DNA of 64,000 nt, taken from contig OZ020519.1 in the NCBI GenBank assembly GCA_963971425.1, positions 4,170,028-4,234,027 of the forward strand, written 5' to 3'. The notes below the pieces were generated by a model, which saw only the letters and a program-made list of their open reading frames with translations, was not told the DNA's origin and did no database searches. The position numbers and the translations under genes were made by a program. Source of the DNA: Bryoerythrophyllum caledonicum. Taxonomy: Eukaryota; Streptophyta; Bryopsida; Pottiales; Pottiaceae. Of the stretch, positions 1 through 62,704 are shown piece after piece (the stretch's first letter is position 1; every line of letters begins with the position of its first letter).

Positions 1-1890
1 CATGGCAGCGTAGATATATCATTCTACTGCCAAAGTCGAAATACAAGTGGGAAATGCCACTGCCGCCAGGGAGTTTTTTCCACCGCATGCAAAGGGAGGG
101 ATGCTTCAGATCCACCAAGTTATGGTATTCACTGAAATCCTCCTTGCCAAAAGCAGTGGCTGGATCAATGTATTTCCGAGCCAACTCTTCCTGAACACAC
201 TTCACAGACTGTAAGAAGTCACAAATGAAGACGTCTTGGGCTTGAGCAAACTTAATGAGGCAATGGACTGTAGTGAGCAGAGGCTGGAAAACCGCAAGAG
301 ACAACAACAACTCCAGATCTACGAGTAAATCAAAGTTATCACTTGCTGCAGCGACGTCCTTGTTCTTCTCACCCGGAACAGAAGTCATGTCCATGCCCAT
401 TTTGACAACAAGGGTCTTGTATTCCTCAAGAGCCCTTCTTGCTGGACTCCTCATGGATATCCAGCGTGTAGTGTTTTTTCGGAGAATTTTATTCCCCTTA
501 GTTTCCATGAGGTTAGCTAACTTTTGGAGCTCAGCATGACGCTTGTTGCTTCGGCAGAAGTAACTGTACAAAGACTGCAGGAAGGACTCAAGCCGAGAGA
601 CCATGGGGAAGTTTGAAAGAGTTGCAACACAGAGATTCACCCTATGGCCGCAACATCCCATTTCCAACGAAAATGGAGCCCACTTCTCACGAATCTGGGT
701 TGAAACCCCAGTCTTTGATCCTTGAAATGTGGATACATTATCAGATCCAAAGCACAGAAGTTTTGAAGCAAGCTCGGAGCGGGACAGGCCTCCTTCCCCC
801 ATCAGCGAGTGCATGATCACACTCGTGAGGTGGTTAGCCTTCCCCCCCTCCGTGACCTGAGACAAGTGAAGCAAGTGGGGAATTCTTTCCCAGTTTTCCA
901 TTGTGTACACATGTACACCAATCCAGCCCGTATGATCTATAGCAGTGACCTCGTCGGCACTAATGGAGATGATTCTCGCAGACTTAACAATGGACTTCAT
1001 GCAGTTTAAGACTGACAAATGCAAATACTCACTCATTTCCCATCCAGTAGACTCGGACCAATGCTTTCGTGGGAGACTTTTAGTCTTCAGGTGCTTAAGC
1101 AGAATTTCAGACCTCTCGTAATCAACCATTGGACGACCATGACGCAGGACTTCAAGCAAGGTTGAGAATTGAACTCCCTTTCTTTTGTAATCTGGATCCA
1201 AGCCCAGCAGCACCTGATCGGCTACTGTATCGGGGTTCCTCCCTGCAAATGTCTTGCAGTTCTTCAAGTGGGCACAGCTCAAAGCAGTATACTTGTCTCC
1301 CACCTTCAAGTCGGGGAGAGGATGACCATCGGCGGTGCAAGTTCTCTTGCCTTGGTGTTTCGCAAGGTTGTCATTCTTCGGGACGATGCTCTTTCTTCGC
1401 CCATTCACACGAGTGCAGATTGTGCACACAACAGCCACAAGAACCCCGTCGACGAACTCACCCTCGCCCCAAGTGTACTTCGCCGACCACGACTCATGCC
1501 ACATCCGAGTGACATCTAACGTCTTCCTCTTCTTCGTGGCGCCTCCGATCTTCCCCGATCCGCCAGGCTTCCTCTTCTTCCCCACCTCCTCCACTTCGTG
1601 TTCACCGCCACCGCTGACTTCTTCAGCACCAGCGCTCACCCTCTCGCCGCTGCTGACAGAGAGCTCGGACCAGGAGCAACCCTCTGACCGACGTGCAGGG
1701 GTGATCGAGTCCTCATTTCTCGTCTCAGAGATATGTGTCTCGCCACCAGGGACACCAGCCGCTGCCGATGGAGCGCCGAAAATCGGGGAAGGAGGCAGAT
1801 ATTTCCCAATGCCATTGGCATTGCGAGTGCAGCCTTGAATACAGCACCCGAAAATTCTCAGGCAATTGAAGCCGCGGTGCCATCTTCTTA
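1..1890 (-). CDS. hAT-like transposase, partial (C-terminus outside window)
   Basis: Read on the minus strand, one frame is open from the window edge to at least position 1890. The first in-frame ATG is at 1504, giving 501 residues before the edge; the true start was not found. Upstream of that ATG the frame carries basic clusters (KKRKPG, KKRKTL) that look like a nuclear localisation signal. After it comes a zinc-finger-like segment (VCTICTR, then H and C residues). The core resembles hAT/DUF4371-type transposases: SADEVTAIDHTGWIG, then GSDNVSTFQG, then a Cys/His stretch GCCGHRVNLC, then the TTRW motif. The two acidic sites fit the first two residues of the DDE catalytic triad; the last Glu and the dimerisation region would lie outside. 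No stop or frameshift is visible in 1.5 kb, so this copy may be young. The family call rests on motif order, not alignment. Confidence 0.72.
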
Positions 1891-1920
1891 AACCCTGTGC
1901 CAGTGCGCCCCTCGGAAAAC

Positions 1921-2130
1921 CAAACCCAATAGAACCGCCAAGAACACAACCAGAGCCCCCACCGAATCCAACAACAATAACACTATGGCAACAACAATAA
2001 CAGATCGGAATGGATCGCAAACCCAACAAAACTGCCAAAAACACAACCAGAGCCCCCACCGAATCCAACAACAATAACACTATGGCAACAACAATAACAG
2101 ATCGGAATGGATCGCAAACCCAGCAGAACC
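1921..2130. repeat. 97-bp tandem repeat, two copies plus a partial third
   Basis: Near-identical units start at 1921, 2018 and 2115 (each begins CAAACCCA), a period of 97 bp. The units hold AACAACAATAACACTATGG and GATCGGAATGGATCGC. They lie just upstream of the minus-strand transposase and could be its 5' untranslated or promoter region. Confidence 0.85.
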
Positions 2131-3632
2131 GCCTCAAACACAATTAGATCGCGCCAAAAAAATCCAACGACAAGAACTCGATACTTCTCGCAGAACAGGT
2201 TACAGCAGATCAGAATGGATCAGTAAACAACAGATCAGAAAGAAAACAGAATAGCAAGTGTGAGCCAAGCGCACTGCAATGAAACAAACCAAGAACAGAT
2301 TTATACAACTCGAGTCCAGCCAGGAGGAAATGAGAGGAGGCAACGACCTGCATTGGAGGTTTTCGAAAATCCGGCGAATTCAATGAGAGCCTCCACCTCG
2401 CCATCGTAGTGAATGCAGGAGAACGCCAATTCTCTTGTAATTCACGGCAAAAAAGAGGTGCAAATCTACAGATTAGCGAGCCCACTCCACCGCAATTACA
2501 AAGCCTCACAAATGCAAAGCCAGAGGAGCTGCAATCTTGAGGGAGCAGACAAGTTGTGAGCCAAGGATCATGACACGAAGACAAAGGTTGGTGAACGACA
2601 AAAACCCCCGAAGCTAAATAACCCAGGCTGGGGGAGACGAAGAAGGAGGAGAGGAGATTAGGGTTCGCTAATCATCTACGGCTAGGATGTAGCCGCCTAG
2701 CTAGAGATCGACGGCTGGGGGAGCTCTTAGGCTAATGATCATTTTTCGGATGTGGTCGGAGATGCTCATCACCATGCTGCCAAGTCGCAATAATCACATC
2801 CACATTTCTCATGAGTAGTTTATTTGCGAAATGTCACAATTCCATGACCCCTTTTCACACTGTACTAGTAGCACCCCTGTTCACACGGTAGCTTTCGAGC
2901 TAATTTTAGCCACTTATAATTTCACTGATGAGGTGGTGAATTCGCCCTGGGCGGTAATGAACCAAACAGGAACGGAAATTTCTTGAGTCTAGTAACTAGG
3001 TCGTTGGGTGAATTTCAGGAGGGGTGGTAAAACTCAGGGCGGTTACGGGAAACATTCTGCCAACTGTCTCTCGAACTTACAGGGAAGGAGGCTCAGCATG
3101 TCAGGGCCAGAAAAACTAAAAGTACTCCGACACAAGAGGCTCAGGTCCCGGAAAGCAGATTTATGGGTGCATGTGCAAGTTACTCGCACAGAAAGTCTAA
3201 TTGCGGCACGGAACTCATGAAGAAAAGACAAGAAACTGATTGCTTCAAGGAGACTACTAAAATAGCCTGCTGCTTTAAAATCATCGGATAGTGCGGCTAC
3301 AGTCCGCGTGAAGTTCAAAGTAGTGTAGCTTCCAACACGTGAAGTGTGGCCCACTTTCAAACGAAGGCAGCACATATGGCAGACAAAGGAGCACTCTTCA
3401 GGATATGCTCTGGCCCAAAATATGTGGTAACCACTGCGCAGTGTTCGTTCTCATTATTTTTCTGCACGAAACATGGACGAATCCATACTATTCGACCAAA
3501 GTGGGAAGTGATTTAATGAGGCAAAAGCAGGTGGGCCCGTTAGTTTTTTGGACCACGCGTACCCTAATCATTCACTTTGACTGCAATTATCTTTCCGTAT
3601 GTACGGCCAATATTCACCAAAGTTTACCCCTA
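2131..3632. other. Non-coding stretch, no gene seen
   Basis: Short open frames occur on both strands but none resembles a protein. 2600-2760 contains several CTAG-rich words and is probably the distal flank of the transposase element. No terminal repeat for that element was identified. Confidence 0.5.
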
Positions 3633-4461: not shown

Positions 4462-4465
4462 TTAA

Positions 4466-5273
4466 CCCCTAAAGGACCAATGTCCCCTCGGGGGACGTTT
4501 TGAGTTTGGGTAAGGTACCACGTTCTCAATTCTAGGCATTATTTTCTGAGATTTTTTACTGAATGGCCAACTTTTGATTAGCTTTGCGTAGACACAAATT
4601 TCGTAGAATTCCGACTTACGGTTCAAAAGTTACAATTTATTTTCACTTACATATACAAATAGTGCATCAGTTTAGTGTGACATATCACAAATACTATCAC
4701 CAAACTTTAATAACTTCTAAATTCAATAGAAATTCGAGTTTTTGTCCATTTAAAAGACTGAAAATGTCCTCTTGGAAAGGAAATTGAGATCTTTGCATCT
4801 ACCGTACGGATTTGTGAATTTCAAATATTTGAGAAGGATATGATATATGCAAAATATAAAGTGTATTGTTGATTCTTGGCACATAGGTGCATTGCAGGAT
4901 TTTTTAGGACATCTTCTACACCTCTTCTACTTCTAAAATTTGGTGCACATGTGCCTAACATGATCCTTTTCAAGTTAAGACAATAAAATCACGGCCCATA
5001 GTGCAAAAAGTTTCCATAGAAGGTGGTCGAAGTTTGTTGAAGGTGTGTAGTATGACCTGAAAAAGAGATTATGTCGCTTTTCAAATGCTAATATCTTTCA
5101 ATCCGTGCGGTCAAACTTACCAAAATTTTCACCACACACTCTCATACAAGTCTAGAACAAGATCCTACGGTTAAATTTTCAAAAAAATGATTTTGTATCA
5201 TTTTGTGTTGATTGTGCTGAAAATGGCAGTTTTGGAGTGTTTTTGAGGAAAAATTGCCTTGGTCCTTTAGGGG
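4466..5273. mobile_element. 808-bp TTAA-flanked MITE, family A copy 1
   Basis: TTAA stands directly outside both ends (4462-4465 and 5274-5277). The inverted ends read CCCCTAAAGGACCAA on both sides. A second copy of exactly the same length lies at 60812-61619 and matches along its whole length with scattered differences. There is no coding capacity. TTAA target duplications with CCC-starting ends are typical of piggyBac-type elements (Kolobok also uses TTAA). It contains the internal words CCGTACGG, CAATCCGTGCGGTC and GATCCTACGGTTA, which also occur in other repeats here. Confidence 0.85.
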
Positions 5274-5343
5274 TTAACACACAATTTCTATCTTCAAACA
5301 AGACACTTAAGCCTTTCATCCAAGGCATTACAAAAGGTTTTAA

Positions 5344-36169: not shown

Positions 36170-36960
36170 CGAGCCTAGGGTTTCCTCTAACTTGAGAGGG
36201 AGGTTTCTGTGAGGGAGGCTAGGGTTTGGCACTTACTTGTGAGGGAGGGTCGGTGTGAGAGCTACAGTTTTGAGAGGAGAGAGGGGTTGCGAGGGGCTGC
36301 GAGAGAGCTACGATTTTGAGGGAGAGTATACAGAAGGTGCGAGGGGCTACAATTTTGAGAGGAGAGAGGGGCTGCGCGGTGCGCTATATAGCTATGCTTT
36401 TGAGGAAGAGGAGAGAGAAGCTGCGAAGGGCTACAGTTTTGAGAGGAGAGAGGGGCTGCGAGGGGCTGCGAGAGAGCTACGCTTTTGAGGGAGAGGAGAG
36501 AGAAGCTGCGAGGGGCTTCAGTTTTTAGAGGAGAGAGGGGCTGCGAGGGGCTGCGAGAGAGCTACGCTTTTGAGGGAGAGGAGAGAGAAGCTGCGAGGGG
36601 CTACATTTTTTAGAGGAGAGAGGGGCTGCGAGGGGCTGCAGGACAGCTACAGTTTTGAAGGAAAGGAGAAAGTGGCTGCGAGGGGCTGCAGGACAGCTAC
36701 AGTTTTGAAGGAGAGGAGAAAGTGGCTGCGAGGGGCTGCAGGACAGCTACAGTTTTGAAGGAGAGGAGAAAGTGGCTGCGAGGGGCTACAATTTTGAAAG
36801 AGAGAGGGGTTGCGAGGGGTTTTGAAGGAGAGAGGGGCTGCGAGGGATTTTGAGAGAAGGTCTGTTGGGTGGGGGCGTCGAAGGGGGGGAGGATTTTGTG
36901 TGAGGGAGGGTCTGTGCTGCTAGGGAGAGAAGGTCTGTTCATAGGGAGAGAGAGGGTTTG
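36170..36960. repeat. Complex minisatellite (GAGGGGCTGCGAG units)
   Basis: Units built from GAGAGGAGAGAGGGGCTGCG, AGGGGCTGCGAGAGAGCTAC and TTTTGAGGGAGAGGAGAGAG repeat with a period near 70-80 bp. From 36640 on, a 50-bp version (GGGGCTGCAGGACAGCTACA plus GTTTTGAAGGAGAGGAGAAA) repeats three times almost perfectly. Plus-strand frames across it stay open but encode only the repeat (for example RRERLRGA) and are not treated as genes. Confidence 0.88.
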
Positions 36961-38240: not shown

Positions 38241-38245
38241 GTTAA

Positions 38246-39876
38246 CCCCTAAGGTACCAAGACAGTTTTACACCAAAAACACTTCAAAATTAATGGATTC
38301 TAGTGCAATGAATAAAGAAGGTAACAAAAACTTTGATTTTTAGTTCTGATCATAGGATCTCAATAAAGGCTTATTAAGTAATACATGTACAAAATTCCAT
38401 AAACTTTGACTGCACGGATTGAAAGATTATAGTGTTTGAAGTCAAGCAAATGGTTCATTTTCTTCCCTGCGATTAGTGGATCACCAGACTTTGACTTCAG
38501 TTGGTGTCAAAAATTTCACTACACAAGGTCTAAATCTATTACCATCTCGTTAAGCATGATGTTAGCTCCTTACACACCAATTTTTAGAGGTAGAGATAGG
38601 GTGTACCATATTCAAAACAAGTGTGCAAAGAGTGGAGGCTCGAAATTTTTTAATTCACACTTTATTTTTTTTTTAACTTAATTTGTTTTTGATTGATAAT
38701 CCAAATGGTTAATAAGAAGGTTTACATTACATATTGTTGTGGAAAAAAAAAGTGAAAAATATGAAGATCTCTAGGTTTTATGTGGAAAAGAAGTTTTTTT
38801 GGTACCTTGCCCGACAATGAGTGGCAATGTGTGAAAATGTTTGACTTGGGTTGGTATGCTATTTTTCACTAAAGACACTTGGGAGTTTTCATCACATAGT
38901 TTTAACAAAGCACCATATACATTTTATGCAGGTTCCACAAGTAGGAAAGAGTTGAAGAGCATCTCAACCAATAGTGGGGGAATGGATATTTAATGATAAG
39001 CGCCATCAAATACCAGAGCTTATACTGCTAATACCTGCAACGTATCTTGAGGTAAGAAATAATTTGTTATTCATTTTTGAAATTGATTCCCGATTGATCC
39101 TCTATTTTTTGTTGTTGTTAGAATGACCTACATTTGGAATTACAAATCCTTTCTTGTATTAGCGGTTGTAACAAGTTTCAATGGTGTCAATAATAACAAG
39201 TAATTTTATTTCCTTTCATATTTTTAAATTACATGCTTTGTCTCTATTGAAATTTCTCAATTAACCCAAGTCAATCATTTGCACACATGATCACGCATTG
39301 TAAGGCAAAGAACCCAAAAAACCTCTTATTTTCCACATAAAATTTAGAGATATTTATATTATTTTCATTTTATTTTCTGAATCAGATGATGTGGTGTAAA
39401 CCTTCTCTTTCACCATAATACATACGGATTCTTATTATAAGACATGGTTTCGTCTCAAAAAAATAAAGCGCAACTTGGTAAATTTTGAATCTATATCCCT
39501 TGTACAATTGTTTTGAATATGCCACACCCCTTTTGAACCTCAAAAAAATCGTGTACAAGAATATAACATCATCATTAATATAATGGTAAAGAACTTAAAC
39601 ATTTTGTAGTGCAAAGACTCGACACCAAGTAAAGTCAAAGAAAATTCTCCTCAACCTAGGAAAGAAAAATATCCGTGTTGTCTACGTCAAACACTAATCT
39701 TTCAATTTGTGCGGTCAATCTTTATGAAAATTTGTGAGGACGTTACTTCTTAAGTATGAACTAAGTTCATATGCTTAGACGTATCCATAAAAACTTTTTG
39801 TTTCCCACTATACTCATGGCACTAGAATGAGCGGTATTGAAGAGATTTTGTTGTGAAAATGCCGGTCCTTTAGGGA
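38246..39876. mobile_element. ~1.6-kb TTAA-flanked element, family C
   Basis: TTAA flanks both sides (38242-38245 and 39877-39880). Left end CCCCTAAGGTACCAAG, then ACACCAAAAACACTTCAAAA; right end, inverted, TCCCTAAAGGACCGGC, then ATTTTCACAACAAAATCTCT. The two halves look like long diverged inverted arms, with GACTGCACGGATTGAAAGAT near 38410 and the inverse type TTTCAATTTGTGCGGTC near 39705. Non-coding. Confidence 0.65.
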
Positions 39877-39880
39877 TTAA

Positions 39881-40816
39881 CCCCTAAGAGCCCAAATAAG
39901 AGCCCAAATGTACGTGGGGGGTACAATTTAGATTTTGTGGAGGTTATTAAAATTTGATATATTATCTTTAAGACCAAAAATTCTTATACTGTATTGTCCC
40001 TGATAAGAGCTCCATGTAGATATTTTTTATGAATCATTTCAGGATTCATGGTGTGAAAGTTAGTACCACTCAAACTTAGAAATGGGGACTCTGGGGAGCT
40101 TCCAAATTTTGCGACGAGTCTCTATTGACATTGAGATTTTCCATACAAGTAGATAATATTACCTTATTTGAAAAAATAATTTTTTTTTTGTCTGTAGTGA
40201 AAAAATATATATTTTAATTGAAGTCAAACATTTTTACACATTTCGGGCAAGCGGGGAAAAAAACTCATGCTTTTCTACATAAAACTTAGAGATCTTCTTA
40301 TTTTTCTCTACTTATTTTTTCAACAAGAATATGTGGCATAAACCTTCTTTTGACTGTTTGGATTATTATTCTAAAACATGTCAAATTCTCAGAAGAATAA
40401 ATTGTGAATTGACAATTTTTGAACATCCACACCTTGCACACTTGTTTTGAATATGCTACACCCCTTCTCTACCTCTGGAAATTGGTGTATTGAGAACTAA
40501 CATCATGCTTAACAGAACGGTAAAAGATTTAGAACTTTTGTAGTTCAAAAATTTAATACCAGGTGAAATCAAAGTCTGTTGATCCACTCAACGCAGGGAA
40601 CAATATCAACCATTTTCTTGACTTCAAACAATAGAATCTTTCAATCCGTGTAATCAAAGTGTATGTTATTTTTTTAGTATGTTACATAGTAAGTCTTGAT
40701 GGAGATCCTACCGTCAAAAGGATAAATATAAGGTTTTATTTTCTTCCTTACCCGTTGCACTAGAATCAACCATTTTGAAGTGTTTTTCGTGTGAATTTGT
40801 CACAGGCTTTTAGGGG
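39881..40816. mobile_element. 936-bp TTAA-flanked element, family C, adjacent copy
   Basis: It begins CCCCTAAGAGCCCAAAT directly after the TTAA that ends the previous element, and ends GGCTTTTAGGGG before TTAA 40817-40820. The internal order of words matches 58305-59251. Two elements sharing one TTAA means one inserted at the border of the other. Confidence 0.65.
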
Positions 40817-40820
40817 TTAA

Positions 40821-41238: not shown

Positions 41239-43810
41239 ATGTATTCGCCAAAATGTTTTTTATTTTCAATAGTGATAATGGAGAGCCGTACAATTCAGAC
41301 TCCTTCGATACGGCCACACATCCAAAGGGATAATATGGTTTCCAATATCTTAGTGGGGGCCCGATTAGTACGAGTGGCACGTGCAAGGCAAATTCAACAA
41401 AGATTTTTTGAGGTCATGACATATGAATTGGGAAGGACAGTAGAATTGCTCTCTGAAAGAAGAGATGTGGTGGGCTTAGCAAACAAGGAGCATGCATTCA
41501 AAAGCGGCATGGAATTGAATGGATCGAAGTTGTTCCCGTTCGAGGTGGCGGTGCGTATCACTAGGGTAGATGATGCATTGCATTGGACTGGAGAGATTGT
41601 AGGAGAACGACTTGGCATGTGTGTGGGCTTGATCATTCGTTGGCACCGGTCTTTGCTACGTACAGTGGCTGTAGAACCGGGTACTCCAAGTGCTCCTAAT
41701 GACCTTGGATCACGAGTAGCGCCTACAGGAATGATGGCCCCAGAATTTGATTTTCCCGAATTCATCAACACTTCAGGATCAACCGAGAGGTCTCGACGCA
41801 GTAGTCAAGCTTCTAACGCCGTAGATGAAAATTCACCGTTTTCCCAACCTACTCCCTCAAATATCCAAGACTTGCCCCATGTAGATGGATTTGCTTATGT
41901 TAGACCAGCACGTCGTCCCTATTCTATGCAAAATAGGAGAAGGAGAGCCATCATTGATAGAAGTTGCACCATCTAAGGTATCCCTTAGAAGCGTGGAAAT
42001 TGCAATGGCACAAGGAGGATGCAAACGGAATTATTTGAGGGACGTTCCAGCAAGGTATCTATTGGACATGCGATATAATGCATGGGCCAGTGAGTTTTCA
42101 GTACGAAGTACGTGGATGAGACAGATGTTGGTTTCTTTTTACACAAGGACGGAAGGAACTCGTCGAGACAAGTTTGTAACAAAGTTAGATGGGAAACAAG
42201 TTTGCAATGTTTGCTACGCTATTGGGGTTGGATATTCACAGAGGCGCTTTAAGCAATTGAAGAAGGATTATCTAATATATGGAAGAGTGACATCGATTCA
42301 CAGCAATACCCTTTCAGATCCAATTAGAGAGAGTACTAGAATGTCTGCGGCAGAGGCTTGTTTTAAATCGTTTGTCGATGAAGCTGGTTGTCCTCAACCT
42401 CATCGTTGTATTTGCCGTAAGAGTGACAACAAAGTCATGCCACTTATTCTCCTTCCTATGAATACTACCAAATTTGATATATTCAATTACGTGAACGAGG
42501 AGGTGAAGAGAATTTGTAATGGAGAAATCATTTCTATGAGTTCGTTCCGGAGGATGTGGCGCATCAAGTATCCCCACGTTTAGGTACCTCCATTCTCGAG
42601 ATTCTCAAATTGCTATCATTATTGGGAGTATAAATGTGCCATGGAGGGAACCACCAATGCGGATGCAAGGATAAAGATAAAGGAGTTGTTTATGTTGCAT
42701 CTGCGCAACCAGATGGAAGAACGTAGGCATTATTGGATATTCAATCGGTCGTGTTATATTAACCCTGAGTTGTACATGTGCATCATAGTGGATGGCATGG
42801 ACCAAAACACGACCATGGTAACGAGGATGTGTCAGACTGTGAAGAACATTGAACACCGATTTGTGAAGACCCACCTGTGCGAAGCTCGTCTTCATGGGAT
42901 CGATTTATATTGCGACGTGTGGTTTGAGGCTCACCACAAACATGATAGCAACCAAGTCGTGAGTACATTGTTGTACGTGATAGGGGATGTGTTGCGGAGG
43001 AAGGGCTTTTTGCAACCAACATTACGAATCCATGCGGACAACTGCACACGGGAGAACAAAAATATTTATATGTTTGCTTTATGTGCTACATTGGTGGGAT
43101 TGGGGTTTTTTCAGGAGGTGGAGCTATCTTTTCTCATAGTGGGCCATACATATGAAGATATTGATCAACGTTTCAGTTGTATATCAAATACGTTGAAGAG
43201 GTCGGACGTGGACTCGTTGAAGGAAATAATGAGTCTTATAGAACGAGGAACATCTCCTACGGACGCATTTGTTAGCGCCCCGCTCCTAGAAAATATATGG
43301 GATTGGAAATTCTTTACAACTCCTCACTTACTGACAGGCCATGATTCATAAGTGGGCATAACATTTCCGCACCACATGCGATTCTATATGGAAAATCGAG
43401 AAGGGACTCGTGAGGTTCAAGTACAACACAAGCATTATTGCAAGGATCCATGGGGACCGGAGGCAGGAACAAAAACTTTGAGGTCGTTGCAAAGTAGAGA
43501 TGAGCGACTAGGGTTGTCATACTGGACGGACGTCCAGTTCGTCCGTCCGTCCGATTCGACCATCCGATAGAGCTCTCGCTCGTCCTTTACAGCCAACATA
43601 GGGTTGACTTACCTGCAAGGTAAAAAACAAGCGACGTGGCAGCCACATATGAACTAAAGTGATGCCACGCAGGATTTAAACTAACAAAATGAATAGTTGA
43701 CTACATAAAATAATATATTGGCCGCAAGGACGTGTCCGCCCCTAAATAATAGAGGCGGGGACATCACCGCCCCTAAATGGTAGGGGCGAAGATGACCCCA
43801 CCCCCAAATG

Positions 43811-45035
43811 GCAGGGGCGGAGACGTCACCGCCCCTCCCCGCCCAATTTTGGAATCAGGATCTTTGAACGGCCATATCTCACTCAAAAATAGTCCAAATT
43901 AAGCATGTGATATGTTTTTTGGCATCTACAAAAAATTTAGATGCCAAATCACACCTCAAACGCTTGATTTGGGCTATTTTTGAGTGAATTATGCCCATTC
44001 AAACATTCTGACTCCAAATTTAGGCGGGGAAGGGGCGGGGACGTTAGGGGCGGGGATGTCTCCGCCCCAAAATGGCAGGGGCGGAGACGTCACCGCCCCT
44101 CCCCGCCCAATTTTGGAATCAGGATCTTTGAGAGGCCATATCTCACTCAAAAATAGTCCAATTAAGCGTGTGATATGTTTTTTGGCATCTACGGAAAATT
44201 TAGATGTCAAATCACACCTCAAACGCTTAATTTGGGTTGTTTTTGAGTGAATTATGCCCATTCAAACAATTTAACTCCAAATTTAGGCGGGGAAGGGGCG
44301 GGGACGTGAGGGTGAGGACTCAACCCTTTGAAGGTTGTAGAGGAACAAAGTTGGGCAAACTCCATTCTCGCCTTGGCAAAGGCCTTCCTCCTTCCCATGC
44401 GTTAGAGAAACGATATTTTTAATGTAAATTTAGTTTTCCTTCCAACTTCTAGGGAATGACATGATTGCTGTGATGATTGAGGAATGCAAAGATCTTGTCG
44501 GAACCAAATATAGCGACTTTTTGTTCTAAATAATTCTATTGGACTTGAATTAGGAGAAGAAGAAGAACTACGGTCTTCCAATGGGACCGGCGTGAATGTA
44601 GTGTTTGTTCATTCTCTTCACTAAGTACATGGCCACGGGACATAGGCTAGTGTATAAAGAACTACTTTCCCCTCTCGAGGATCAACACTTTTCCACACTA
44701 AGTGCTTCCCTACACTAATTGCATTAAAGATAACCAACATGTCATCTCCCCCAAGGGCTTTGTGGGTTCTCATACAACGAGGCCGTGGGATCTCCCACCA
44801 TAATTGGGTGGACTATGGTGGTACTTGAATTAGAATGTTGTATTACGCTGTAAACAACAAATTCTTTTTGACATTTTCAAAGAAGATAATATTCTTTGCA
44901 CAAGTAAAACCTCCTTTATTATCGACGGACAAATACCATTGAGCAATGTAGTTTTAATGTAAAGATGTGTTCTTAAATGACTCATCTTGAGGTCATATTC
45001 AAATTTAATAAGCATAATGTCGAATCATCCAATGT
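43811..45035. repeat. Left arm of a 1,225-bp inverted repeat
   Basis: It corresponds end to end, without net insertion or deletion, with 47439-48663 in reverse. I noticed only scattered single-base differences. The outer part holds a duplicated unit of period 264 (43811 and 44075) with G-rich words GGGGCGGGGA and GGCAGGGGCGGAG. Open frames such as 43984-44250 appear on both arms because the arms are copies; they do not look like genes. Confidence 0.92.
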
Positions 45036-45064
45036 CCATATATCCCTTGTGTAACAACCCTTAA

Positions 45065-46149
45065 CCCCTAAAGCATCAATTCAACAGTTTTGGTATGATT
45101 TAGGGTCCGGTCAGGCTCCCTATGAGTCAAATTTTACCGGATGTGGCTGTAACTTTGGCACAGCATGGGAAATTATCATATCTTCCTAACAAGACCAAAT
45201 TTTACTTTCATCGGGCCCGTAGTTAAGAAATAATTCGTGTTTAAAGATCAAAATTCAATTCAGGGCAGCTGGGGCAGGTTTGTGGCCAATGGGAGTGGTG
45301 TACCAAATCTGTGACAGTCTACAGTGACTTCCAAATGATCCTTTCTGAAATCGTTTCACAATTTTTTTTAAAACTTGATTTTGAAAAATCCAACCGTAGG
45401 ATCTTGTTTAGAGCCATCCAATTAGTGTACGTACCAAGTTTTGTAAATTTTGACCGTACGGATCTTGAGATATATTCAGTCAAAGTTCCAAGTTTTATAA
45501 AAACTTTCAGGCAGATCAACAGTGATTGGGTCACCTTCGTCACCCATTTTTCCTTCACCATTTTCTCCTCCTAAACCACAGTATATGCTGTAAAATTCAT
45601 ATCTATTTTGGATTTATTTATTTTTTGGATTTCTTTCCTCTACAATTTCTTTTCCATACAAATGCATGTATACATCGTTCGGATTTCAAAAAATAGATGA
45701 TCTTCTTAGGCATTTGTAGTGTGGAAAAAGAGCCAGTGTATATGCATTTCATTTGACTCCCGTCACTGAAAATGTGGTTTTCCAATGCTTCTGTGTGTTG
45801 TATTGTCTTCAATTTTTTTGAGCATACTCCCAACTCACTTTAGAATCCAAAACTGAAGAGCCTCCAACCACACGATCTCAAAAAATTGGCTGTTTCACTC
45901 TCCGAAGGGTGGCTGTCCCTGCCGGGCAGTACCAAAAAAAACTTTTCTCTCAAGTTCAAACCTTATGATCTTCCAAACGGTGAGGAGTTACAATCTAAAA
46001 TTCTGTGTACACATACATGTACAAGTTAGGTACTAGATCCTACGGTTAGATTCTTTAAAATACGTTCGAATTTGCATAATTCTACCTTGAACTAAAACAG
46101 GGCAGAATTGAGGCAGAATTTGGGATTTTATGGCCAAAAACTTTAGGGG
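45065..46149. mobile_element. 1,085-bp TTAA-flanked element in the loop of the hAT
   Basis: TTAA at 45061-45064 and 46150-46153. The ends are CCCCTAAAGCATC and, inverted, CCCCTAAAGTTTT, so 9 bp agree. It carries the CCGTACGGATC / CCGTAGGATCTTG words near 45390-45465 and GATCCTACGGTTAGATTC near 46030. Non-coding. Confidence 0.7.
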
Positions 46150-46153
46150 TTAA

Positions 46154-47438
46154 ACTTTACTTTACAAAGGAATTACGCAACTTAACTTTACAAACGAATT
46201 ATTTAAACATGCAATAAGAGAGAATTATATATATCCCCAAATATAAGGGCTTGTGTAAACTTCTAACCACGGAGGAAATGTACAAGTTACCCAACAATAA
46301 AATGTTGCATGAGTGCCCCACAATAAATACCCCCTTTTCATCCATTGAGAAATAGTGAGAACCTAAATCAATATAATCTACCATTCAAATTTTGCACCTA
46401 TTTTTTCCATGATATTTTGTATGTATCAATTACATAGTTCTTTGACATTATATCTTTTTATATATTACTTATAACCATATTTCACACTTTTAATGCAATG
46501 TATGTTTCATGTACTTTCTTTATAAAATTTATCCTAAATGAATATTTTTGCCCCTATTTATTTATCGTACGTCGTTTATACAATTTATGCGAGTGGCCCC
46601 TTCGAGATTACTTTTTTTCCCAACTTCCCCAAAAAGTGTAAACGTGCTCTACTTGGGTTAAAATGTATTTTAACAACAAAGAAAATACTATGTTTTTGGA
46701 ATCTTAGAAGAAGGTAATACGCTTTATATATAAGTATTCTACAATTGAATCCAATGTTAAGAAGGGGCATGGAAAGATAAACAAAAAAGTTAAGGAACAT
46801 ATAAATAGTTTGCACGTGTTAGAGGAAATGTAATAGTTTCCATTTGAACATAAAGAAATTGACATTTCCAATTTATATATACGGCATATGTATAGTACAT
46901 CACAACGTCAAAATTATATTTATTTAGGAAAAGAATTTCATACAAACCATACAAAGTTCTATCATTATTGTATATAGACATGAGTTCAAGAAAGAAGTTA
47001 ATAGTTATGTCCTATATTGCTAGAAATTTTAGTAGAGCTTCTATTGACATTTATATTTTTTGTACATCTATATGTATACTAAAAAACATTTGGTCGTGTA
47101 TCTCTCCCCTACATCCATAGCTTTTACAATAGACATGTTTAATGTGACCTTTTGAAGGTGTCACCCTTAGTTGCAAAGCCTTTTGGAGTTTCATCTAACC
47201 TTTGCAAGGTTTAATCAATTTAAAGTTTTTTTGACACCATTTAGTAAGAAGTGTTGTGAGAGAACCACTTCGACTTTGGAACATTGTGGCCTTTCGAGAA
47301 TGCTTTTATTTGCATCATCTTTCTTTATGATTGAATAAAGCGATAAATAATCATAGCCTCAACAATTTAAAGATAGATATTTCATCAACCCCACGGTTAT
47401 GAAGAGTAATTCGTGGATTGTTCCAAAGGGGTTGTTAC
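46154..47438. other. Rest of the hAT loop, AT-rich
   Basis: No gene seen. It is AT-rich with scattered TATATA stretches. The last bases before the right arm (TTCCAAAGGGGTTGTTACAC) correspond to GTAACAACCC at the left arm border. Confidence 0.5.
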
Positions 47439-48663
47439 ACATTGGATGATTCGACATTATGCTTCATAAATTTGAATATGACCTCAAGATGAGTCATTTA
47501 AGAACACATCTTTACATTAAAACTACATTGCTCAATGGTATTTGTCCGTCGATAATAAAGGAGGTTTTACTTGTGCAAAGAATATTATCTTCTTTGAAAA
47601 TGTCAAAAAGAATTTGTTGTTTATAGCGTAATACAACATTCTAATTCAAGTACCACCATAGTCCACCCAATTATGGTGGGAGATCCCACGGCCTCGTTGT
47701 ATGAGAACCCACAAAGCCCTTGGGGGAGATGACATGTTGGTTATCTTTAATGCAATTAGTGTAGGGAAGCACTTAGTGTGGAAAAGTGTTGATCCTCGAG
47801 AGGGGAAAGTAGTTCTTTATACACTAGCCTATGTCCCGTGGCCATGTACTTAGTGAAGAGAATGAACAAACACTACATTCACGCCGGTCCCATTGGAAGA
47901 CCGTAGTTCTTCTTCTTCTCCTAATTCAAGTCCAATAGAATTATTTAGAACAAAAAGTCGCTATATTTGGTTCCGACAAGATCTTTGCATTCCTCAATCA
48001 TCACAGCAATCATGTCATTCCCTAGAAGTTGGAAGGAAAACTAAATTTACATTAAAAATATCGTTTCTCTAACGCATGGGAAGGAGGAAGGCCTTTGCCA
48101 AGGCGAGAATGGAGTTTGCCCAACTTTGTTCCTCTACAACCTTCAAAGGGTTGAGTCCTCACCCTCACGTCCCCGCCCCTTCCCCGCCTAAATTTGGAGT
48201 TAAATTGTTTGAATGGGCATAATTCACTCAAAAACAACCCAAATTAAGCGTTTGAGGTGTGATTTGACATCTAAATTTTCCGTAGATGCCAAAAAACATA
48301 TCACACGCTTAATTGGACTATTTTTGAGTGAGATATGGCCTCTCAAAGATCCTGATTCCAAAATTGGGCGGGGAGGGGCGGTGACGTCTCCGCCCCTGCC
48401 ATTTTGGGGCGGAGACATCCCCGCCCCTAACGTCCCCGCCCCTTCCCCGCCTAAATTTGGAGTCAGAATGTTTGAATGGGCATAATTCACTCAAAAATAG
48501 CCCAAATCAAGCATTTGAGGTGTGATTTGGCATCTAAATTTTTTGTAGATGCCAAAAAACATATCACATGCTTAATTTGGACTATTTTTGAGTGAGATAT
48601 GGCCGTTCAAAGATCCTGATTCCAAAATTGGGCGGGGAGGGGCGGTGACGTCTCTGCCCCTAC
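47439..48663. repeat. Right arm of the 1,225-bp inverted repeat
   Basis: Reverse copy of 43811-45035 of identical length. Outside the arms the two ends of the element (43522-43810 and 48664-48846) are different in sequence but alike in content (GGACGG and CGCCCC words). Confidence 0.92.
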
Positions 48664-49817
48664 CAATTAGTGGTGGAGACGTCCCCGCCCTAGTGCCACG
48701 GTGGCATGACACGTCCGTATGTGACGTGGCGATCACAATAAAAATTTCTTACTTGCAAAAAATTATTGGGCGCATTTCGGGCAATCCGTCCAAACCGTCC
48801 GTCCGTACCGTCCAAACCGCCCGTCCGATCACCTCAACTCGTCCGTTATGACAACCCTGTGAGCGACCATCGTTTGCGGAAGTATTTGCAGCGGACGAAC
48901 GAGAGTTGAAGGCTTTAGATGACTTCATCATATATAAACAAAGGTGCATTCAAAGGTTGCAGCATGAGGACAAAAATCGTGAGGCAAAAGTAGAGGCTGA
49001 ACGATTGAAAATCTATTTAGCTGAATTTCCACACAAAGACCGTAGCAATGTACATCGTTCCTCACTGTTTTGGCCTTCAAAGTTCTCCAACACCGGACCA
49101 ACAAAAAGTGCATCTTTGGATGTAATAGATGGTGCAAGAGAAGAAAATCGCGAGATAAATGTGGTAGACCAGATAGTGGCGATGCTTCCAAATGCCGAGA
49201 CTCGACGATACTTTGGTCCTTGTAGAGGAAGACCCTCTAATCAAGCACTGCGTAGGACACAACGAACAAAGCACAACTATGTGGAGGAACGAGCCGAAGA
49301 AGGAGCAAGGAATGAAGGTAATCACGACCCATTTCCACCATTCAATCCACAATCTGATATCCGTTGTAGACAATTTGTAGCCTTGAGTGTTGATCGAGCA
49401 GAGATAGAAGGCGGTGTATCATTCTATGTAGGGAAAGTGATTGAGGAAGGAAAAAACCGATGGAGACTTAAGATAAAGGTTTGTTGGTATTGGCCCATCA
49501 TCCAAAGGGGGGTTGTTGATGGCCATGGGTCTTCTGCACAACGGTATGCAAATTGCATGGATTCATTCTGGGAGCCATCTGGGGAGAGCCATAGTTGGGT
49601 GGAGAAAGATGCATGCATTTTTTCATGGGTAGAGACACCGGAAAGAACCATGTCCGGGGCCAGCGGGTGGAGAAAGCGCAATGTATTTGGAGTACAGGTT
49701 GAAAGTAGGATTCGCATTCTTCAATCGGCAAAGGCTCACATACTACAATATATTGCAATGCAAACCGAAGCTATCGATGACGACCGTTTGCAAGCAGCCC
49801 TAAATTCTATGGAGTAG

Positions 49818-58304: not shown

Positions 58305-59251
58305 TCCATAAAGGCCCAAGAGTTCCCTCCGGAGACTTTTGAAGGTTTAGGCAGATTCCTATGGTGTCAATTTATAACATTCCTTTTTGAAATTTTTATT
58401 GTAGATGGACATTACTAAAAGCTTCGTGCAAGTCCAATTCTTCCCTAAATCCAACATTTTATGAAAAAGTTTTAGGGTTTTGAATTTCAAATGGGGAGAC
58501 CGGGCACGTCGGGCAACCCCAAAAATTTTTGCTAGGACAATCTATTGAACTTGAGATTTTTAGTACCATCAAATAAAATTATTTCCTTTCATATTGTCAA
58601 AAAAAAAACCTTTTGTCTTAAGTGGAAAATAGCATAACAATCTAAGTCAAATGTTTTCACACATTATCACACTTTGTCAGGCAAGGTACCAAAAAAACTT
58701 CTTCTTTTTCACATAAAACTTAGGGATCTTCATATTTCTTACATTTTATTTTTTCTACTACAAGATGTGGTGTAAACCTTCTTATTGACCATTTGGATTA
58801 CCATTCTAAAACATATTAAGTTCACAAAAAAAATAAAACCTGAATTGGCAAATTTTGAACCTCCGCTCCTTGCACATTTGTTTTGAATACGCTACACCCC
58901 TTCTCTACCTCTAAAAATTGGCGTGCAAGGAAATAACATCATGATTAACATGATGGTAGTGTTTTCAGACCTTGTGTAGTACAAAAATTTGACACCAAGT
59001 GTAGTCAAATTTAGTTGATCCACTCAAAGCAGGGAAGAAAAAGAATGGTTTTCTCTACTTCAAACACTGTAATCTTTCAATCTCTCAAGTCAAAGTTTAT
59101 AAATTTTGTGAGGACATTAATGAATAATTATTCATTTAGATCCTACAGTTAGATGTAGAAATAAAAGGTTTTCATTACCTCATTACTCATCGCACTAGAA
59201 CAAGCAGTTTTGAAGTGTTTTTGGTGTGAAAATGCCTTTGGCTTTTGGTGG
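58305..59251. mobile_element. 947-bp TTAA-flanked element, family C
   Basis: TTAA at 58301-58304 and 59252-59255. The ends are TCCATAAAGGCCCAAG and, inverted, CCACCAAAAGCCAAAG (imperfect). The interior shares the ordered words of 39881-40816, such as GTGGTGTAAACCTTCTTATTGACC, CTACACCCCTTCTCTACCTC and CTACTTCAAACACTGTAATC. Confidence 0.7.
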
Positions 59252-59255
59252 TTAA

Positions 59256-60807
59256 TATTGTGTCAACAATTTTGAAACATCCAATATTATTTTTAAGGAA
59301 CATGGTTTGGTGTGAATTAAGAATTGAGGATTGTTTGAGATCGTGGTTTGATGTGGATTGAAAAATGATGTGGATGAATGTAGTTTGCGTGTACTAGAAT
59401 TAGTGTAGGTATTTTGAAATAGTCTGGTCCACACTATATGCAGTGTTTGGTGTAGTATAGATAGTTTTACTCTAAGTAAAAGATCTTTATCAAAAGTAAA
59501 ACGTTATAGTGCTTTCAAGTCATAAAGTACCACTACACTAAACACAAAATTCAGTGTTAAGCTAAGATGTCACGGCATATGTTCCTTCACTCCATGCTAC
59601 CCACTCATTGATGTTCAAGTGCTCGACTGGACGTAAGCACTTGAAGTTCAGAATACGACTAGATTCATTTTTTTTTATAATTTTTTTTGGCACATACAAG
59701 TTGCTATTTTGGCAACTTTTGGCAATCTTGTTAGGTAAAAAGAAGATTTGACAACCAGGAATTGAACCTGCAACCATTCCATTTGGAGACACATTGGGTA
59801 TCTTCCACCACAACGCGGGTAGTTTAGGGTCATCTCAGACCTACTTGATTCATTTTTAAGGATGTAATAGTGCGCACCTTCACATCGTCTTCACTTTGTG
59901 TGATGTCAATACTTTAGATACCAATTTTTAAGGGTATTGGAGGAGTGAAGTATTCTTAAAAAATTGCAATATAGAGAGGTTCAAAATCACCTAACCACAT
60001 TTTTGTGTAAATTGAAAGTCCAAATGGTCAAAAAAAATAGAGTTAACATTTTTCAATTATACTTAACAATATTAGAGTAGCTAAACAACAAATCCATTAA
60101 ATTAATTCAAAAAATCAATGTTGAATTCTTTTGAGAAATCAACAAATAGAAATTTTGAAGAAGAACAAAGGAGTTCAATTATCAAAAAAACTAAATGTTT
60201 TTGAGAATGTTTTTGGTATGCATCAAACAAATATTGAGCATAGTTGAACCTACTATCCTTCTATGACAATATATCATTACTAGAAGTCTAACCACCTTTG
60301 ATGATTTGGAATTATCTCAACAACAAATCAAGTTAGAAGAAGAAGAATTTCAACGTCCAAAGGAGGCTGGTATGAATAGAGTGTTTGTTTGTTCCATTGC
60401 TGAATCAATGTCCACTAGACAAAAAATTACTTTCCCCTCTTAAAGGTAGAAACTATAATATATGGAGTTCAAAATGCCATATATGTTATAATTTGGATTT
60501 AGATGGAGAGGTAGGAGGGTATTACGTGTAGCATGTTTGATCTTATTTGTTTTTTTTTCATCAAATTTTGTAAGTCAAATTCTATTGTGGGTCATGTGGA
60601 TTGGTAGGGGTTGGTTGTTTCTCAAGCTCTACTTATGACATAGGATAGACATGGCATGTTGGATAGCTATGGTGTTGATGTTTTTGAATGTGTTCCTTTA
60701 AGAGTCAATGGGATTCTTAAAGTATCTTCAATTGATCTCATGGAGGGAATATGAGTTGGAGCTCTAACCCTTCTTGTAATTATAATCAGAGGGTCAAATT
60801 TCTACCT
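59256..60807. other. AT-rich intergenic stretch
   Basis: No gene seen. 59255-59400 resembles the other side of the preceding element (GAAAAATGATGTGGA at 58146 and 59363), so that element seems inserted into an older repeat. On the minus strand, 59800-59745 has a B-box-like GGTTCAATTCC that could come from a tRNA-derived SINE. 60337-60415 shares a module with 44553 and 62203. Confidence 0.4.
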
Positions 60808-60811
60808 TTAA

Positions 60812-61619
60812 CCCCTAAAGGACCGATGTCCCCTTGGGGGACATTTTGAGTTTGGGTAAGGTACCACGTTCTCAATTCTAGGCATTATTTTATGAGATTT
60901 TTTATTGAATGGCCAACTTTTGATTAGCTTTGCGTAGACACAAATTTTGTAGAATTCCGAATTATGATTCAAAAGTTACAATTTATTTTCACTTACATAT
61001 ACAAATAGTGCAGTAGTTTAGTGTGACATATCACAAATATTGTCACCAAACTTTAAAAACTTCTAAATTCAATAGAAATTCGAGTTTTTGTCTACTTAAA
61101 AGAAAGAAAATGTCTTCTTGGAAAGGAAATTGAGATCTTTGCATCTACCGTACGGATTTGTGAATTTCAAATATTTGAGAAGGATATGATATATGCAAAA
61201 TATAAAGTGTATTGTTGATTCTCGGCACATAGTTGCATTGCAGGATTTTTTAGGACATCTTCTACACCTCTTCTACCTCTAAAATTTGGTGCACATGTGC
61301 CTAACATGATCCTTTTCAAGTTAACACAATAAATTCACGGCCCGTAGTGCAAAAAGTTGCCATAGAAGGTGGTCGAAGTTTGTTGAAGGTGTATAGTATG
61401 ACCTGAAAAAGAGTTTCTGTCGCACTTCAAAGGCTAATATCTTTCAATCCGTGCGGTCAAACTTACCAAAAATTTTACCACATACTCCCATACAAGTCAA
61501 GTACAAGATCCTACGATTAAATTTTCAAAAAAATGATTTTGTATTATTTTGTGTTGAATGTGCTGAAAATGGCAGTTTTGGAGTGTTTTTGAGGAAAAAT
61601 TGCCTTGGTCCTTTAGGGG
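60812..61619. mobile_element. 808-bp TTAA-flanked MITE, family A copy 2
   Basis: TTAA at 60808-60811 and 61620-61623, inverted ends CCCCTAAAGGACC. Same length as 4466-5273 and alike throughout, with single-base differences (for example GGACCAATG versus GGACCGATG at the left end). Non-coding. Confidence 0.87.
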
Positions 61620-61639
61620 TTAAACATGATAAGGTCACA

Positions 61640-61832: not shown

Positions 61833-62704
61833 CCCTTTAGTGCCCAGGTCATATTTCTCCAAAACCAAGATATGTGCTGATTTTTTTCTTTGAAACATTT
61901 TTGGTGGAAATATAATGCCTAATTTTAGTATCCAACCTTACAAAATTGAACTCAAACCATGACCTAAACTTTGGAGAAAATTTGTACAACATCCAACGGT
62001 TGATGATATAGATTAGTGTTTAAAGTTATCGTATATTGGTGATGAAAATTGTGGACTTTGGAGGGTATATTACTTTATCCACCAATAAATTCTTGCAAGA
62101 ATTTATGTACTTTGGATAAAAGAGGTTCACATGTGCACTAGGTCAATGGCTTTGCATTGACTTATCATATGTGAAGAAAACATTTACAGAAGAGAAGAAG
62201 AACTCCAATCCCCGAAGGAGACCGGCATGAATGTAGTGTTTGTTCATTCTCTTCACTAAGCATAAGGCCAAAAACATTTACACATGATTAGTGATGATTT
62301 TTTTACTTTTGTCTACTTGATTGTATACAAAAATGATCCAAATTATATGAAGTAAAACAAAAAATTTGTATGCGATGAGAGAGATCAATAATCACAAAAG
62401 AATGAAGAATCTCTTAAAGACAAATTTCAAACAAAATTACAAACCAAAATCATTTTGCATGTGTATGAAATACAACATAGTATGCGGCATGGTATACATT
62501 GTATTTTAGTGTATTTTGTCTTGTATTCCTAGCTTTTCCATGAGTTCTATAACTCCAAATCATGATGTGATTTTTGCAGAGTGTTCATGTAATGTGTGCA
62601 CAAATCTGAACTTCAAATTTCACAACTAACTCCTTATGGATTTTATACAAATTAGGTTTTAACACCTCCAGAGTCCCATTTTGGGTCTCATGGGCACTGA
62701 AGGG
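61833..62704. mobile_element. 872-bp TTAA-flanked MITE, family B copy 2, with a small insertion
   Basis: TTAA at 61829-61832 and 62705-62708. The ends are CCCTTTAGTGCCCAGG and, inverted, CCCTTCAGTGCCCATG. It matches 24044-24841 except for an 82-bp insertion at 62189-62270 flanked by the 12-bp direct repeat AAAACATTTACA. Confidence 0.82.

Follow-up and report, generated by a model that had tools for sequence, protein, structure and literature searches.

A 64,000-nucleotide stretch of the genome of the moss Bryoerythrophyllum caledonicum (contig OZ020519.1, positions 4,170,028 to 4,234,027; here called the window) contains a 5,351-bp non-autonomous hAT-type element (positions 43509 to 48859, forward strand) with two near-identical, inverted arms around a central loop. 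It is highly probable that this inverted repeat belongs to a family of non-autonomous hAT-type elements with a foldback-like anatomy and has been shaped by recombination between the arms. The family is present at no fewer than 69 loci in the source genome, and its anatomy runs from a left end through one to three tandem GC-rich units, an arm interior, the loop, the inverted interior, and the inverted units to a right end. Judged from the sequences, the inverted repeat is older than the insertion in the window and is a recurring family feature rather than a one-off accident.

The initial annotation, which was made from the window alone, described a hAT element with a 13-bp terminal repeat. The terminal inverted repeats (TIRs), TAGGGTTGTCATA on the left (43509 to 43521, forward strand) and CAGGGTTGTCATA on the right (48847 to 48859, reverse strand), are indeed identical at 12 of 13 positions, and the element is flanked by a perfect 8-bp target site duplication (TSD), TGAGCGAC (43501 to 43508 and 48860 to 48867). 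Both are short and fit the hAT-type consensus, which begins with CAGGG. The insertion splits an open reading frame (ORF) encoding DUF7869 in a surrounding high-copy repeat, with the ORF at 42641 to 43351 upstream and its continuation at 48906 to 49817 downstream (both on the forward strand). For an empty-site test, both flanks were fused at a single TSD copy and compared with the genomic DUF7869 repeat. The fused flanks matched across the join, uninterrupted, in all 40 of the copies scored from 684 first-look candidates, with 93 to 96% identity. This result confirms the insertion in the window and indicates that it was precise.

The outermost 275 bp on the left (43509 to 43783, forward strand) and 169 bp on the right (48691 to 48859, forward strand) were initially described as differing from each other, and they do, except for the TIR and, at the inner borders, a 31-bp GC-rich repeat. 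Each end is private to its side. Family copies carry the left end on their left side, and the outer 17-mer of the right end occurs 268 times in the genome (0 times for the reversed control). Inside these ends, base-by-base alignment upheld the previously noted 1,225-bp arms (43811 to 45035 and 47439 to 48663), which match without net indel. The arm cores (43820 to 45035, forward strand; 47439 to 48654, reverse strand) have 4 mismatches in 1,216 bp, at positions 43961, 44850, 45008, and 45009, and no indel (99.7% identity). Lower-identity extensions to 43784 and 45048 on the left and to 47426 and 48690 on the right bring the ungapped alignment to 20 mismatches in 1,265 columns, 16 of them at the edges (10 outer, 6 inner). 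A chance origin of the match is excluded by an arm-versus-arm BLAST score of 2196 bits (E value of 0.0).

From outside to inside, each arm consists of two tandem GC-rich units followed by a 723-bp interior. The left units (43781 to 44312, forward strand) have a period of about 263 bp, are 92% alike, and are each an imperfect palindrome; two matching units make up the outer part of the right arm (48162 to 48690, reverse strand). The interiors, both of the sequence type designated I below, lie at 44313 to 45035 (forward strand) and 47439 to 48161 (reverse strand) and were used in the family tree. The 2,403-bp loop of the window copy (45036 to 47438, forward strand) includes the 1,283-bp family loop (46156 to 47438, forward strand), which is found either way round with respect to the ends among the copies, and a TTAA-flanked element of about 1.1 kb (45061 to 46153; TTAACCCCTAAAG...CTTTAGGGGTTAA). 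This insert is missing from all 22 of the other copies compared, 19 of which have TTAA and 3 TTCAA at the site. Thus, it is a later insertion, present in no examined copy other than that of the window.

Patterns derived from the units found nothing in viral_contigs or genome_contigs, and the comparison is therefore confined to one genome (437 Mb in 894 contigs). The arm gave 97 listed matches, the loop 40, and the left end 55, with the best 40 candidates scored in each search; first-look candidates numbered 3,929 for the arm and 486 for the loop. The 40 strongest matches per query (120 in total) fell into 71 clusters, or 69 when clusters less than 12 kb apart were merged, which is a lower bound. 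Together with the window, the 39 stretches that were fetched gave a sample of 40. The 23 in which the two arms and the loop formed a single piece were used, and 21 of these had both ends.

The arm-loop-arm layout was found between the same two ends in the window and in 20 other fetched copies, with one to three GC-rich units per side. At the exact TIR edges, 12 of these 21 copies have a perfect 8-bp TSD, 5 have one mismatch, and 2 have two mismatches; in the remaining 2 (L015 and L032) a TSD fits only with a shifted edge. Thus, an 8-bp duplication with at most two mismatches borders 19 of the 21 elements (18 of 20 without the window), and the family has both the 8-bp TSD and the short TIRs of a hAT element. 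Because the same layout is present in 20 other copies, the repeat predates the insertion in the window and is not an assembly error, a possibility that the initial annotation had named as a potential refutation. That annotation attributed the arms to an inverted duplication or to gene conversion after the element formed. The layout shared with the 20 other copies argues against an inverted duplication in this copy, and the family evidence below favors gene conversion between the arms. The 21 copies were selected for having both arms; they show that the layout was inherited rather than produced by an event in the window copy, and they do not demonstrate an inverted repeat in every family member.

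Some copies have a small palindrome, in which arm positions 1 to between 102 and 117 stand beside inverted arm positions 1 to 224 or 225 (L019 in its 3' part, L029, L031, L036, and L038). In four of these five the palindrome adjoins a shortened loop piece starting at q631 or q670. These are derived forms with a truncated arm. The existence of multicopy forms without a full second arm suggests that the full inverted repeat is dispensable for spread.

The two arms of one element are usually much more alike than arms of different elements. The 723-bp interiors differ at 0 to 5 sites in 15 of the 23 elements, the window included, and the median identity within an element is 99.44%, versus a mean of 94.22% between elements (1,012 pairs). 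Private bases, defined as those carried by one element and by no other sampled element, were common to both arms in 78 columns and restricted to a single arm in 21 among these 15 elements. In the other 8 elements, the corresponding numbers were 11 and 99. When, for contrast, each left arm was paired with the nearest arm of another element, 13 shared columns were found over 23 pairs. The near identity of the arms and the 78 copy-private columns present in both of them point to arm-to-arm gene conversion.

A tree of the 46 arms separated two types, I and II, with support of 100/99. Both arms are type I in 14 elements and type II in 3, and 6 elements are mixed, with the type-II arm on the same side of the loop in 5 of these 6. 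The simplest reading is that the arms were unlike in an ancestor and that conversion to I-I or II-II then took place several times among its descendants. Mosaic patterns, recognized with 14 diagnostic columns, are alike on both sides of L041 and confined to a single arm in L042 and L013, and in L020 and L035 the sequence of the other side extends past the arm/loop border. Both the mosaics and the border overruns fit conversion tracts.

The loop has the orientation found in the window, relative to the left end, in 13 of the 23 copies and the opposite orientation in 10. Adding 14 unfetched loci for which orientation was read from coordinates gives 24 versus 13 of 37; the 20 unfetched loci included 6 for which no left end was listed, and these were not counted. 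The excluded stretches are not in the count either, but both orientations are represented among them (for instance, L023 and L034 match the window, and L024 and L031 are inverted). When the loop tree was constrained to keep all inverted copies in a single clade, the log likelihood (lnL) fell by 165 and the constraint was rejected (p-AU, 4e-65). The minimum number of orientation changes on the loop tree is seven, a rough figure because several inner branches are weak. For example, L012 and L013, about 41 kb apart on contig C4, have different perfect TSDs and sister loops (support of 100/99) but opposite cassette orientations. The left arm of L012 is 97.2% identical to the right arm of L013, and the right arm of L012 is 96.2% identical to the left arm of L013, versus 93.8 to 93.9% for like sides. 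The arms of this pair follow the loop, which suggests that the arm-loop-arm cassette was inverted between fixed ends. The occurrence of both orientations and the rejection of a single origin of the inverted form point to recombination between arms.

Recombination is what we infer from the near-identical arms of most copies, the two old arm types, and the two loop orientations, all directly observed in a family with TSDs of hAT size. The proposed mechanism is homologous recombination between the two arms, which may occur within one element or between elements during break repair, for example after hAT excision. Copying without crossover would overwrite one arm with the other and leave the arms alike, and crossover resolution or arm switching would invert the loop. 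The unlike outer ends, presumably needed by the transposase, lie outside the arms and would stay fixed. In the window copy, arm recombination would have homogenized the two arms; the 1.1-kb TTAA-target element entered the loop of this copy. We tentatively extend this mechanism to a plant hAT family with an invertible segment, in which arm recombination, perhaps tied to repair after excision, might repeatedly equalize the arms and redraw the orientation of the loop to give two isomers with fixed, unlike ends.

Several observations weigh against a family-wide inverted repeat that is shaped by arm recombination. Sampling was limited to top matches to the arm or loop of the window, and 17 of the 40 stretches were excluded for being incomplete, split, or rearranged; at least four of these (L023, L026, L031, and L037) have both ends and a second arm that is shortened or missing. 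The arms differ at 16 to 74 sites in the remaining 8 of the 23 elements, and three arm pairs outside the 23 are not near-identical (L038, 90.3%; L027/L028, 98.5%; L022, 98.0%), which lowers the near-identical share to 15 of 26. L044 is the exception to the consistent side of the type-II arm. Past the inner arm edge, similarity in the window alone was not above that of shuffled sequences (32 of 300 reached it). The 24:13 ratio of loop orientations is not clearly different from even (p = 0.10), several branches of the loop tree are open, and the tree of the ends is weak, with 1 of 18 inner branches well supported. No copy was observed in both orientations at one site, and flipping in place is thus something that we infer. 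The dimerization domain of hAT transposases, PF05699, has many genomic copies (150 scored of 1,150 candidates), but when a transposase partner was sought on contigs C1 and C2, to which the comparison was limited, none of the 36 PF05699 copies listed there was within 12 kb of the 90 right ends listed there. In L018, the loop groups with L019 and L020, and the ends group with L009, L011, L014, and L021.

This discordance suggests that exchange between elements also takes place, and such exchange could yield some inversions without crossover within an element. It is unlikely, though, that template exchange between different elements, rather than between the arms of one element, was the only source of inversion and homogenization. 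L018 and the mixed-arm copies favor such exchange, but the 78 private columns in the 15 elements with near-identical arms indicate copying within the lineage of an element, although unsampled copies could be donors.

The element is overlapped by 58 ORFs of at least 45 amino acids, of which 20, including 9 in the arms, were scanned against Pfam. No match above the cutoff was found in those 20, although very diverged or short remnants could escape such a scan. Below the cutoff, one ORF at the border between the TTAA element and the loop matched DUF3275 and SMN_YG-box, and one arm ORF matched DUF2982. There was no Rfam match at the gathering score in the window.

A role as a silencing locus, an idea raised in the initial annotation, in which a read-through transcript would fold into a hairpin and give rise to small interfering RNAs (siRNAs) that target related elements, on the model proposed for Mu killer of maize, is likewise unlikely. 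The arms are very long and near-perfect, and their sequence is multicopy, so that targets exist. However, no transposase domain was found in the nine scanned arm ORFs, unlike the case of Mu killer, and any hairpin RNA would thus match the arms of the family and not a recognizable transposase gene. In addition, the multicopy spread suggests an ordinary mobile element.

It is improbable that the arms belong to a separate transposon with long TIRs, of the foldback type or resembling Mutator-like elements (MULEs), that is nested in the hAT element and carried along. Arms with tandem GC-rich units do resemble foldback ends, and the first-look candidates were far more numerous for the arm than for the loop. 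Against this, there is no convincing TSD at the arm edges, where 37 short matches were found, versus a mean of 8.4 in shifted registers, but 28 of the 37 fall within a GC-rich palindrome at 43823 to 43830. For this reason, nesting of a transposon that had generated a target duplication of its own was rejected. Arms and hAT ends also occur together in the 21 two-ended copies, although the search design did not target arm pairs that lack hAT ends. Nesting could nevertheless be a very old origin of the arms.

A recent, one-off inverted duplication inside this single hAT copy is very improbable. The 99.7% identity of the arm cores and their sharp edges are what such an event would leave, but the arms, loop, and borders recur, inverted, in the 20 other two-ended copies elsewhere, 18 of them with the 8-bp duplication, and the two old arm types predate the copies. 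The shared layout led to the rejection of this explanation. An assembly artifact, to which long inverted repeats are prone, was rejected as scarcely credible given the mismatches between the arms, a loop that is absent from the arms, the TSDs, and the same structure at 20 further, independent sites.

Within the hAT superfamily, the window family is the equivalent of foldback-type transposons, of which Galileo is an example. Galileo is a foldback-like transposon of the P superfamily in Drosophila, with 7-bp TSDs and inverted arms that form the termini (PMC2775673, PMC3573991). In GalileoN-1 and -2, the TIRs are more than 99% identical within a copy and differ by about 7% between copies, and the chimeric GalileoN-4 and -5 have the middle segment in opposite directions and lie at the breakpoints of chromosomal inversions, with their TSDs exchanged. 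These features were attributed by the authors to recombination and conversion (PMC2775673, PMC3573991). The moss family shares with these accounts the long, internally repetitive inverted arms that are alike within a copy and the middle that occurs in both directions. It differs in being hAT type, with 8-bp TSDs and arms inside distinct ends, and no transposase was found in the 20 of 58 ORFs scanned. Unlike the Galileo chimeras, the mixed-arm copies L012 and L013 keep perfect TSDs of their own, and L042 and L044 have one mismatch. Among the other mixed-arm copies are L015, with its shifted edge, and L046, which is without one end.

Other systems give further partial parallels. The gadMor-hAT-1784 element of Atlantic cod is also hAT derived, lacks a transposase, and has two inverted arms of about 600 bp built of 167- to 169-bp tandem units (PMC12368964). 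In contrast to the moss family, it has a short internal sequence, and its arms are termed TIRs; the material compared mentions neither loop inversion nor homogenization within a copy. The foldback elements Tetris (PMC4079207) and Tm1 (PMC3169594) and MULEs with tandem TIRs (PMC3310237) have a middle domain between inverted arms made up of tandem units and are mostly non-autonomous; as described, foldback elements mostly belong to the Mutator superfamily (PMC4079207). The window element is of this type in having a middle domain between long inverted arms that contain tandem repeats, but these arms stop short of the termini, which are unlike. Tm1 commonly has 9-bp TSDs, and the two TIRs of one element average 93.15% identity (PMC3169594), versus the median of 99.4% within elements here. 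Mu killer is a long inverted duplication derived from a transposon, as is the repeat in the window, but it duplicates part of mudrA and is a single silencing locus (PMC3440606). The moss repeat is a multicopy family feature, with no coding domain, and so no inverted duplication of transposase sequence, recognized by Pfam in the nine arm ORFs. Distinctive here are a plant hAT family, the position of the arms within fixed ends that differ from each other, and how often each loop orientation occurs. No plant hAT element with a flipping middle or foldback arms was recognized in the literature searched, but most subscription journals were outside its scope, and absence is unproven.

Several other features of the window were noted. 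The DUF7869 ORF, which has an in-frame stop upstream of the hAT insertion, lies in a repeat that, with its high copy number, looks like a mobile element encoding a DUF7869 protein; no relative of the ORF was found in viral_contigs. A 714-amino-acid open frame (2 to 2143, reverse strand) runs off the window and has no Pfam match; by eye, it resembles a hAT-type transposase. With up to two mismatches allowed, no end of the family studied here was found near this frame within the window, apart from a site at 1363 that lies in the frame itself and has one mismatch. An arm module of about 83 bp (44558 to 44635) recurs at 62193 to 62270 (85% identity; region 62175 to 62285) and more weakly near 60.4 kb (60335 to 60421). 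The copy at 62193 to 62270 is an insertion, with a AAACATTTACA duplication recognized by eye, relative to a related copy near 24.4 kb, and the module may represent a small SINE-like insertion. Repeats related to one another, most of them bounded at TTAA by ends of the TTAACCCCTAA type, are located at 4462 to 5277, 38242 to 38877, 40104 to 40820, 45061 to 46153, 58524 to 59255, and 60808 to 61623; from the target site, they are presumably piggyBac-like. A TTTAGGG array and a metal-ATPase-like gene with three HMA stretches are plant-like features of the sequence. At 36261 to 36819, GA-rich units of 85 and 170 bp form a tandem array.

A long inverted repeat is commonly regarded as unstable or as a trigger of silencing. 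Here, a transposon family has apparently kept one until its arms diverged into two types, and a foldback-like anatomy best known in Mutator- and P-type elements is found in a hAT family. With dozens of copies, the family offers a natural tally of conversion and crossover between inverted repeats in a plant genome and makes it testable whether these events occur in place or during transposition.

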